DNA from: an uncultured Pseudoflavonifractor sp.
GTDB taxonomy: Bacteria; Bacillota; Clostridia; Oscillospirales; Oscillospiraceae
Reading direction: 5' to 3'
DNA length: 64,000 nucleotides
Assembly: GCA_947651395.1 (NCBI GenBank)
Contig: CANSYW010000007.1
Coordinates: 1-64,000, forward strand
The notes under the pieces were generated by a model that did no database searches, was not told the DNA's origin, and saw only the letters and a program-made list of their open reading frames with translations. The translations under genes were made by a program, and so were the position numbers. This document shows, in pieces, positions 8,419-10,809 of this stretch (position 1 is the stretch's first letter; every line of letters starts with the position of its first letter).

Positions 8419-8598
8419 AGTGATCCAGCCACTCGGGCTGGGAGGAGAATGTGGGGGACTATTCTTGGGGGCAAGGTGGCTCCCCCATTGTTCCCCCGAG
8501 GGTAAGGGATCTTTTTCCGATGATCCAGCCACTCGGGCTGGGAGAGAATGTGGGGGGCCATTCTTGACGTCAAGAATGGTCCCCCGGTCTCTCTCAGG
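8419..8598. repeat. Two imperfect ~50-bp direct repeats and a 20-bp palindrome
   Basis: The block starting TGATCCAGCCACTCGGGCTG at about 8420 recurs at about 8521, each time followed by GGGAG(G)AGAATGTGGGGG and a variant tail. The second copy runs into a perfect 20-bp palindrome (CATTCTTGAC/GTCAAGAATG, about 8560-8579) flanked by GGGGGC and GTCCCC, giving a long possible hairpin. No convincing gene lies here. It looks like a family of intergenic repeats upstream of the M24 operon. Confidence 0.7.
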
Positions 8599-8628
8599 CC
8601 AGGGGTCTGTAGCATCAATACGATAAGT

Positions 8629-8847
8629 CTATCGTTGATCCGACCGCCCCAATAAATAGTCCGCGGAGACATGGAAGTATTCGCACAAAATCCACAGCCG
8701 GGCCATGGTGGTAGTAGTCTTACCATTTTCCAGATCACTGATCTGAGTAGGGGTGACATCCAGTAGTTTCGCAATTTGAGCTTGCGTCACGCCTTCCTCT
8801 TTCCTGAGACCGAGAAGACGCTGACCAAATATTTTCGGATCAAACAT
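8629..8847 (-). CDS. Small XRE-family HTH transcriptional regulator
   Basis: A 72-residue single-domain Cro/C1-type helix-turn-helix protein: a TQAQIAKLLDVTPTQISDLE recognition region after RLLGLRKEEGV, and a C-terminal ADYLLGRSD, as in many Clostridia repressors. I start it at ATG 8847, which has AAGGGGGATCC upstream; an ATG at 8868 is in frame but lacks a ribosome site. It is divergent from a small gene whose promoter region holds two inverted repeats that suit this repressor. Probably autoregulated. Confidence 0.9.
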   Translation of the reverse strand: MFDPKIFGQRLLGLRKEEGVTQAQIAKLLDVTPTQISDLENGKTTTTMARLWILCEYFHVSADYLLGRSDQR

Positions 8848-8858
8848 AAGGATCCCCC

Positions 8859-8887
8859 TTGACAACATTAGATAAAATCTATATAAT
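8859..8887 (+). promoter_or_regulatory. Consensus sigma-A promoter of the divergent small gene
   Basis: TTGACA at 8859-8864, a 17-bp spacer and TATAAT at 8882-8887 form a perfect vegetative promoter. It reads toward the ATG at 8922. The spacer contains an inverted repeat (8869-8881), so repressor binding would block RNA polymerase. Confidence 0.9.
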
Positions 8888-8907
8888 GAACTTAGAATAA
8901 ATCTAAG
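8868..8907. promoter_or_regulatory. Two putative XRE operators
   Basis: Operator 1 is TAGAT-AAA-ATCTA at 8869-8881, inside the -35/-10 spacer. Operator 2 is CTTAGA-ATAAA-TCTAAG at 8891-8907, around the expected transcription start. Both share the half-site TTAGA(T) and lie in the XRE/small-gene divergent region. That the 8629-8847 repressor binds them is inferred from position and symmetry. Confidence 0.65.
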
Positions 8908-8921
8908 TGAGGCGAATATAG

Positions 8922-9436
8922 ATGGACTATTTAGACATCCTGTTTAACTGCCTGGAGGAGGAGCCGCCCTCCGATACCCCGGAATACCGGGAGAGCAAAA
9001 ATATCCGGGGGCTGCTGCTGGATGACATTCAAAAAGCCATGGGAAGCTTCGATTGACAAGGGCAAACACGCCCCAGAGAGCCCCAAAGGGCGTGCTGGCT
9101 TCGTTTTCGTCCTTGCCGGGCGACAGCCCGCCTGCGGACTGCAGCCTCGCCATCCCATCCTTTGGGGCCCTCTGGGGTCCGAAAGAGTTTTACGGGAGCG
9201 GGGGGCGTTCCTGGCAAGGTGGGCGACGAAGCCTTACTGGCGTAAGGCGAGGAGACCTAACGCAGTCCGGGGATGGCCCCCGCCCCGCAAAACCGTGTCT
9301 GCCCTTGTCAATCGAAGCTAACGATATGGCAGAAAAAGCAGTGGCTGTTTTTGATGGACATGAGACGATGGAATGCCGCCGCTTTTTCCGCTGCGGCCTC
9401 CGCCTGGGCCTGGAGCTACTGGGCCTGCTGGTATAG
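8922..9436 (+). pseudogene. Small unknown gene interrupted by a 275-bp inverted-repeat element
   Basis: The ATG at 8922 opens a 44-codon frame ending TGA 9054-9056, starting MDYLDILFNCLEEEPPSDTP; the last three codons and stop lie inside the left terminal repeat of the element at 9045-9319. After the element a second frame (9320-9436) reads NDMAEKAVAVFDGHETMECR and ends FFRCGLRLGLELLGLLV. Removing exactly 9045-9319 joins GGA to AAC in frame and yields one 79-residue protein. Its end resembles the GxRLGxxLxxE-type terminus I recall in small Clostridia proteins next to XRE genes (DUF6809-like; family call uncertain). The function is unknown. The 3' end overlaps the convergent gene at 9416 by 21 bases. 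Confidence 0.6.
9045..9319. mobile_element. 275-bp MITE-like element with 26-bp terminal inverted repeats
   Basis: The ends are 26-bp inverted repeats with one mismatch: 9045-9070 begins AGCTTCGATTGACAAGGGCA and 9294-9319 is its complement. Inside are nested inverted repeats: CCCCAGAGAGCCCCAAAG (9071-9088) pairs with 9160-9177 with one mismatch, GCCTTAC-TGGC-GTAAGGC sits at 9231-9248, and GGACTGC near 9137 matches GCAGTCC near 9262. There is no transposase frame, so it would be non-autonomous. No target duplication longer than one base is evident. It splits the small gene next to the XRE regulator. Confidence 0.75.
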
Positions 9437-10264
9437 CCTCTTCATGGTCAGGGCGTCTACCTCCTGGGTGCCGGCGCTCTCGCAGATGAAGGTGGGGCTC
9501 CAGCCCCGCCGGGCCACCGCCGCCATCAGGGGGGCGGGATCGGGGCCGAAGCCGCCGTTGTCGGAAAAGGTGCGGTGACACTTCTCGCCCCCGTTGGGGG
9601 TGAATTCAATCTGGGAGAAGTGGCTGTGGAACACAGAGGCCCGCTGGGCGCCCAGCGCTGCCTCCATCTGATCCAGCATGGCCTCGCAGGCGTCGGCCCC
9701 CGTGAGCTCCCCCAAACTCCGGGCATAGAGATGCCCAAAATCCACACAGGGGATGAGCCGGTCATCAAGTTTACATAATTCGAGAACCTCGGCCAGATCC
9801 CCCAGCTGATTGATCTTGCCCATGGTCTCAGGGCACAGGGAGATGTGGGCAAAGCCGGCCTCCTCCCAGTCCCGCAGTACCGATACCATGGAGGCCTTGG
9901 CAATGTCCAGGGCCTCCCGGCGGGTGCGCTTCATCAGGGCTCCGGTGTGGACCACCACCCGGGTGGCGCCCATCCAGTCCGCCGCCTGACAGGCGGCGAG
10001 GATATAGCCGGTGGTCTTGCGCAGGCTCTCGGGGTCGGGGTTGGCCAGGTTGATGAAATAGGGGGCGTGGAGGGAGAGGGCGATCCCCGCCTCTCCGGCG
10101 GCCTGGCCGATCTTTCGGGCGGAGGCCTCGCCTACATGGACGCCTTTGCCGCACTGGTATTCGTAGCAGTCCAGGCCCAGGCCCCGGAGCCAGCCGGGGG
10201 CGTCGGCGGAGGATTTATGGGGAAAGGCGTCGGGGTTGCCGGCGGGGCCGAATTTGGCGGGCAT
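9416..10264 (-). CDS. Endonuclease IV-like (Nfo family) TIM-barrel protein
   Basis: A 282-residue xylose-isomerase-like TIM barrel with the endonuclease IV metal-site pattern: SLHAPYF, VVHTGA, LCPETMGK, VDFGHLYARS, VFHSHFSQIEF and a final FICES. Nfo enzymes cut DNA at abasic sites using three zinc ions; the His, Glu and Asp ligands appear present. I use ATG 10264 with AAAGGAGCTGACTCC upstream rather than the in-frame 10303. It follows the YqeG phosphatase by 35 bases in the same direction. A sugar isomerase-like activity cannot be excluded, but the motif set favours Nfo. Confidence 0.82.
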   Translation of the reverse strand: MPAKFGPAGNPDAFPHKSSADAPGWLRGLGLDCYEYQCGKGVHVGEASARKIGQAAGEAGIALSLHAPYFINLANPDPESLRKTTGYILAACQAADWMGATRVVVHTGALMKRTRREALDIAKASMVSVLRDWEEAGFAHISLCPETMGKINQLGDLAEVLELCKLDDRLIPCVDFGHLYARSLGELTGADACEAMLDQMEAALGAQRASVFHSHFSQIEFTPNGGEKCHRTFSDNGGFGPDPAPLMAAVARRGWSPTFICESAGTQEVDALTMKRLYQQAQ

Positions 10265-10299
10265 GGAGTCAGCTCCTTTTTCAGGTGATATAGGGCGGG

Positions 10300-10809
10300 T
10301 CAATTGTGTCCGCCCCCGCGGCGGCCGAGGAGCCGGAAGGGGGTCTCGGCGGCGTAGCGCAAAAGCCGGCCGGGGTTTTTCCCCCAGGCCATGGGCTTGA
10401 CCAGAACGGTGGCGATCCCCGCCCGGTTGGCCCCCAGGATATCGGTGAAGATCTGATCCCCCACCATGACGGCCTGGTCGGCGGAGACGCCGGCGCGGGC
10501 CAGGGCCGCCCGGAAGCCCTTTGTCCCCGGCTTGCCCGCGTGGCGGACGTAGGGGACGCCCAGAGCTTCGCAGAAGTCGGGACAGCGGTGGCTTTTCCGG
10601 GAGTTGGAGACCACAAAGAGGGTGACGCCCGCCTCTTCCAGCGCCTCTTTCCAGGCCGTGAGCCGGGGGGAGGGGAGGGTCTCCTCATAGGGGGAGAGGG
10701 TGTTGTCCAGGTCGCAGAGCACCAGCCGCACGCCGACGGAGCGGAGGGCGTCGGGGGACAGGTCATATATACTTTCCTTTACCCGGTCGGGGATCAGGAG
10801 ACATCCCAC
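10300..10809 (-). CDS. YqeG family HAD phosphatase
   Basis: A 169-residue HAD protein: LCDLDNTL (DxDxT nucleophile loop), VVSNS (motif II), KPGTKGF with the motif III Lys, and MVGDQIFTDILGANRAG (motif IV). YqeG/Gep4-like proteins act on phosphatidylglycerophosphate or related phosphates. The start is GTG 10809 with GGGAGG eight bases upstream. A longer frame to 10890 starts upstream of the probable promoter (TATAAT at 10861-10866 on the minus strand), so it is rejected. First gene of a two-gene operon with the endonuclease IV-like protein. Confidence 0.9.
   Translation of the reverse strand: MGCLLIPDRVKESIYDLSPDALRSVGVRLVLCDLDNTLSPYEETLPSPRLTAWKEALEEAGVTLFVVSNSRKSHRCPDFCEALGVPYVRHAGKPGTKGFRAALARAGVSADQAVMVGDQIFTDILGANRAGIATVLVKPMAWGKNPGRLLRYAAETPFRLLGRRGGGHN

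Follow-up and report, generated by a model that had tools for sequence, protein, structure and literature searches.

A small gene beside an XRE-type regulator gene most likely disrupted by a TA-inserting non-autonomous element in an uncultured Pseudoflavonifractor

The window, a 64,000-nucleotide stretch of contig CANSYW010000007.1 from an uncultured Pseudoflavonifractor species, contains a small gene that has very probably been disrupted by a non-autonomous, TA-inserting element (MITE) of the IS630/Tc1-mariner type, which brought in 273 bp plus a 2-bp target duplication and whose left TA has probably since been altered. The element belongs to a multi-copy family with TA at its ends, orthologous sites in related genomes are uninterrupted, and the two halves of the split gene are still recognizable on either side. 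The features concerned are collected in Table 1.

Table 1. Features of the interrupted locus and its neighbours (positions in the window)
Feature	Position	Strand	Basis or remark
Divergent XRE-type regulator gene	8629..8868	-	Pfam HTH_3, E 9.4e-15; neighbour kept in five relatives
5′ part of interrupted small gene	8922..9044	+	Matches residues 1-42 of intact homolog L030
Left target-duplication copy, now AA (probably a former TA)	9044..9045	.	Other copies have TA here
Non-autonomous element (TA-type MITE), 273 bp	9046..9318	+	Borders by homology, ten full-length copies
Left terminal inverted repeat, 25 bp	9046..9070	+	
Core copy A (loop repeats and covarying stems)	9080..9167	+	Covariance model R1, 68.6 bits; L001:1536-1623
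Core copy B, inverted	9197..9285	-	Covariance model R1, 34.4 bits; L001:1653-1741
Right terminal inverted repeat, 25 bp	9294..9318	-	
Right target-duplication copy, TA	9319..9320	.	Intact
3′ part of interrupted small gene with natural stop	9320..9436	+	Matches residues 42-79 of L030, different frame
Endonuclease-IV-like gene	9416..10303	-	Pfam AP_endonuc_2, E 2.1e-25; neighbour kept in five relatives

The interrupted gene and its uninterrupted orthologs

The reading frame that starts at 8922 encodes 44 amino acids and ends at 9056, its stop codon (9054-9056) lying three codons inside the left arm of the element, and deletion of 275 bases from the window yields a frame of 79 residues; both points were made in a first-pass annotation of this DNA and are reproduced here. 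Homologs of the 5′ part are found in five relatives (G014, G008, G015, G007 and G001; 6 of 60 genomes match when its own is included). All five are uninterrupted and run on to 77-82 residues from their likely starts, none ending naturally near residue 44, and in each of them the homolog is adjoined by a divergent XRE-like gene (judged by translation) and by an endonuclease-IV-like gene (judged by its C-terminal sequence). The proposal of the first-pass annotation that a non-autonomous mobile element interrupts the partner gene of an XRE regulator is borne out by these uninterrupted homologs at the same place. When the protein of G008 was used as a query against 200 genomes of the family, matches were obtained in four, and the window gene was returned as two pieces in different frames (8922-9047 and 9320-9433) that abut at the element. 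Once joined, the two halves need no internal gaps to be aligned with any of the five orthologs; 16-23 of 40-41 residues are identical before the joint, and 12-24 of 36-38 after it. The five uninterrupted orthologs and the two pieces abutting at the element thus argue for disruption of the gene by a TA-inserting MITE. Through these orthologs, a filled and an empty site can be compared for the window insertion alone.

The likely course of events can be outlined as follows. A 273-bp non-autonomous element of the TA-inserting IS630/Tc1-mariner kind would have entered the TA of GG-TA-AC in a 79-codon gene divergent from the XRE regulator; this empty site reads Gly-Asn in frame and gives the same protein as the GGA-AAC joint left by the deletion. 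The insertion would have added 275 bases (273 and the duplicated TA), displaced the reading frame by two and brought in the stop three codons into the left repeat, and one base of the left TA would have changed to A afterwards. The gene would now yield at most a 44-residue fragment and has probably lost its function. A distant uninterrupted relative of the broken protein is encoded in the same genome (L097, G000:C23:25153-25356; 28% identity, E 2.4e-4), in view of which loss of the window copy may be tolerated. The interrupted protein may resemble DUF6809 (PF20648) at a level below the Pfam cut-off of 27, since the best intact homolog, L030, scores 18 bits (E 0.0051) and neither the 5′ part in the window nor L031 gives a match to this family.

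Several observations concern the surroundings. The space that separates the small gene from the XRE gene contains an inverted repeat, ACTTAGA-ATAAA-TCTAAGT (8890-8908), which is likely to be an operator. The endonuclease-IV-like gene matches TIGR00587 with E 6.8e-16, below the cut-off of that family. Upstream of a peptidase-like gene on the minus strand, a stretch beginning GATCCAGCCACTCGGGCTGGGAG is present twice, at 8421-8450 and 8522-8550, about 100 bp apart.

Borders of the element and the TA rule

The arms at 9045-9070 and 9294-9319 are 26 nt long and 96% complementary, with one mismatch and 223 nt between them, and a 29-nt inverted pair is nested inside (9071-9099 and 9149-9177), so that the terminal and nested repeats lie where the first-pass annotation had placed them. 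The interior was also correctly described as free of protein genes, no Pfam match being found in two frames through the element. The folding energy of the element strand is -168.5 kcal/mol against a mean of -115.05 for shuffled sequences (z -9.34), a value reached in 0 of 200 shuffles.

Full-length copies, ten in total, are distributed among four genomes of the genus (one each in the window, G006 and G001, and seven in G014), and the element is matched in 8 of 60 genomes including its own. TA stands on both sides in eight of the ten; the exceptions are the window copy, AA-element-TA, and L014, TA-element-AA. Eight copies are 273 bp long, one is 272 and one 274, and in the six bases outside the TA on each side there is no longer direct repeat (L027 starts at a contig end). 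With TA-element-TA borders and a length of 273 bp, one insertion therefore adds 273 + 2 = 275 bases. The 275-bp unit originally described is accordingly the right number of bases added, of which 273 (9046-9318) were transposed and the other two are the TA duplication. This duplication had been thought to lack any clear sign; it is visible in the other copies, and in the window its left copy is now AA. The AA flank counts against the TA-MITE reading, and a one-sided defect of the same kind is present in one of the nine other full-length copies (L014); we infer that AA is a changed TA.

In its own genome, sequence of the 275-base unit is found, partial or shorter, in seven other places (the search gave 11 rows, namely the element, its two arms, a second piece of the contig 18 copy and the rest). 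A 24-nt terminal-repeat pattern with up to three mismatches matches this genome nine times, two of these being the window arms, against none for the reversed control; with a weaker 18-nt end pattern and three mismatches the control matches too (0-3 per genome), and single weak ends may be due to chance. Two very short copies in the same genome (L010 1501-1548 and L011 1501-1548) consist of little beyond two terminal repeats back to back. The sequence is thus not single-copy, as the search in its genome and relatives proposed earlier has made clear. It is short and gene-free, has terminal repeats of 25 bp, is dispersed in many copies, is bounded by a target duplication and can be compared with an empty site, which are the attributes of a MITE.

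The mobilizing transposase

Duplication of TA points to a transposase of the IS630/Tc1-mariner kind. A gene for the DDE_3 domain of IS630 is present in 28 of 300 genomes of the family and in none of 16 genomes of the genus, several of which are incomplete. At 30 DDE_3 loci, the two highest-ranking candidate pairs of ends from each, with a spacing of 700-1900 bp, were compared by eye (several loci gave none), and no autonomous element with ends resembling those in the window was found; this and the absence of DDE_3 from the 16 genus genomes count against the TA-MITE reading. Frames of at least 90 amino acids in 13 loci with one terminal repeat, read by eye rather than by profile scan, included nothing that resembled an IS630 protein; at L020 a frame recognized in the same way is presumably a serine recombinase. 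The 18-nt end pattern has no exact match in viral contigs.

A closer connection with IS630 comes from a sister end type, TACTAnnnTCnnATTAAAAC, for which 96 end matches were counted in G153 against one for the reversed control. Near the starts of contigs 27 and 38 of this genome, the final 38 codons of a transposase gene lead into ends of the sister type, and these fragments have up to 84% identity over 38 residues to sequence that lies beside a DDE_3 domain; being short, they had no match in an NCBIfam scan. A partner of the IS630 class is shown by these fragments for the G153 sister group and would by extension be expected for the window end type, which was probably mobilized in trans by an IS630-type transposase.

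G153 carries about fifty copies of one element type with the same ends, in size classes near 81, 143, 159, 259, 280 and 319 bp. IS1182 was also considered as a partner and set aside: at two contig ends its junctions with the element fall, by eye, at internal positions that differ, and it has been read as an insertion into elements. Such sequence seems to be inserted in copies at L236 (G153 contig 16) and L238 (contig 40), and a frame at L236, truncated where the contig stops, scores 239 bits (E 8.8e-71) against the IS1182 transposase family, below the cut-off of 270.

A conserved folded core

The interior of the element contains a core of about 87 nt, which consists of an outer stem, a symmetric internal loop made up of a pair of direct repeats, each about 17 nt long (roughly CTKCGTYNTCNKCCTYG), and a hairpin whose loop has four bases. 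Its GC content is 0.68-0.70. The window element carries two cores in inverted orientation, an arrangement also present in further long elements, e.g., L015, L076, L136 and L197. Some part of the element is matched in 41 of 300 genomes of the family when two candidates are scored per genome, mostly by inner parts without the ends, and many of these inner parts sit in elements that are bounded by TA, measure about 150-160 or 270-275 bp and have other ends. A covariance model, used with an E threshold of 0.001, detected at least one core in 36 of 120 genomes of the family, which represent 34 of 106 genera; since 37 candidates were scored per genome, the core counts per genome are lower bounds.

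Among 21 cores taken from such elements, 91 cells are changed on both sides of a pair, compared with 32.4 in shuffles, and pairing drops from 79% to 35-43% when the partner is displaced by one to three columns. For 94 distinct cores from 78 loci (out of more than 200), in an alignment (A2) fitted to the model, two-sided cells number 606, compared with 199.5 in shuffles and 148-219 in slid structures; the covariation score reaches 0.602, the shuffled value being 0.158 and the slid ones 0.110-0.160. Pairs with two-sided changes number 24, close to the shuffled mean of 22.3, and 24 of 500 shuffles reach that number. Many positions of the loop repeats exceed 1 bit and most of the outer stem stay below 0.75 bit; conservation of the hairpin is in part an effect of ascertainment, since the pattern from which alignment A1 was seeded included the sequence of the hairpin. 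In the outer stem, 38 G.T and 170 A.C mismatches were counted (shuffled means, 129.6 and 212.4), 136 of the 170 A.C being concentrated in alignment columns 11-15, while in columns 6-9 both kinds are rare (3 and 6 of 372). No conclusion about a selected strand is drawn from the asymmetry. The core may act as folded DNA, as RNA or through duplex binding sites, and the mismatch asymmetry does not decide among these; it may also have a likeness to integron attC sites. A 160-bp sister element has no match in plasmid and phage collections. The only exact match to the core pattern among viral contigs is in IMGVR_UViG_3300035326_000454 (L275 6790-6835).

Exchange of the ends

Of 60 core loci in G066, G069, G110, G149 and G153, 45 are enclosed by a TA-bounded inverted pair with a score of 10 or more in a search that requires TA with no more than one mismatch, and five of the other 15 are cut off at the end of a contig; this search succeeded at 1 of 60 loci with shuffled flanks and at 2 of 200 random places in the window. 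The ends were compared for 19 elements picked by hand from the 60 loci. For seven of the nine elements fetched from G149, arms belonging to the same element are 79-100% identical, a figure biased upward because the search maximizes the arm match and asks for TA, and arms of different elements are 25-83% identical, a figure free of this bias. Some elements in G066 and G069 share their ends (88%) and others do not (21-54%). Within one genome, cores of one kind are therefore found in elements with unrelated ends.

From these observations we tentatively propose, as a possibility on the doubtful side, that the TA-bounded elements of this bacterial family form a modular superfamily, in which a conserved folded core (two direct repeats of about 17 nt across a symmetric loop, with covarying stems, doubled in inverted orientation in the class of about 273 bp) would be retained in many genera and have a job of its own, and ends would have been swapped among TA-inserting transposons.

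Alternative explanations

A stronger departure from the classical picture would be that the element is not a MITE recognized by a transposase, and that a modular, folded core with exchangeable ends is recognized by its structure. The excess of two-sided cells and covariation among the 94 cores, and the presence of cores of the same kind beside unrelated ends in one genome, speak for it. Yet the ends fall into families, one of them common to an IS630 gene, as expected for recognition by a transposase; the number of pairs with two-sided changes hardly rises above the shuffled mean; the structure had guided the fitting of the alignment; stems could stay complementary through template-switch repair of a palindrome; and proteins could bind the loop repeats as duplex DNA. 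We consider this explanation unlikely.

Two other proposals concern the gene itself and compete less well with its disruption. The element might be kept as a part of the gene, as in Rickettsia palindromic elements, with translation restarting so that a peptide encoded by the element is joined to the former C-terminal half. The frame of the downstream half is indeed open through the whole element (136 amino acids from stop to stop), an open frame at 9053-9436 begins with a TTG overlapping the TGA stop, and two of the six element frames are without stops. However, this frame has no Pfam match, the open frames vary among the seven copies checked, so that no reading frame is conserved, and the GC-rich composition of the element would favour open frames by chance; such a fusion is very unlikely. 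Even less probable, to the point of being scarcely credible, is that precise DNA excision, programmed or frequent, or removal of 275 bases at the RNA level restores the 79-residue protein of a conditionally split gene; the first-pass annotation had hinted at precise excision, RNA-level processing and conditional splitting. Exact removal does connect the halves in one frame, and the downstream one has kept both its open frame and its conservation, but the same joint is given by a plain TA insertion and the left TA is altered. Nor does any self-splicing or other Rfam family exceed its cut-off in a search of 8500-9700 at E up to 1, which gave no match inside the element and three weak sub-threshold matches outside it (8508-8600); 12 related loci had none. 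The clean in-frame joint of 275 bases without a visible duplication arises because a 273-bp element and its TA duplication were added and one base of the left TA was changed. The most likely reading hence remains the disruption of a small gene through the insertion of an ordinary MITE.

Relation to known elements and significance

Rickettsia palindromic elements are palindromic elements inside protein genes, and the window element likewise lies in one; unlike them, the window insertion shifted the frame and stopped the protein. These elements are named in PMC2229807. RUP, the repeat unit of pneumococcus, is proposed to be moved by IS630-Spn1 and resembles the window element in being small and gene-free, with terminal inverted repeats, TA insertion, strong folding and the ability to interrupt genes (PMC3049150; PMC2229807). 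It is 107 bp long and AT-rich, has 9-bp repeats and comes from one genus (PMC3049150; PMC2229807), whereas the window element is 273 bp long, with 25-bp repeats, a GC-rich core in two inverted copies and no partner found. Correia elements, or NEMIS, of Neisseria share with the present elements TA ends, terminal repeats of about 25 bp, size classes with the same ends and filled and empty sites, a likeness by description; they are families defined by constant ends (PMC2229807), whereas here a core is common to elements with different ends. BOX elements of pneumococcus are likewise modular, folded and variable in size and vary in their inner modules (PMC3049150), whereas here the inner core is shared and the ends vary. 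In the literature covered, which leaves out most subscription papers, nothing on such elements in these bacteria was found.

MITE families are usually defined by their ends, and a conserved core with variable ends is unusual. Disruption of a gene by such an element is routine; yet the clean pair of a filled and an empty site fixes the borders and the TA rule of an element family for which no description was found. The conserved interior and the varying ends lead to testable questions, namely whether the core of a MITE is selected as a structure and whether transposase partners are changed by exchange of ends. If the modular proposal is true, the job of the core may be to help movement, to capture new ends or to act on the host.
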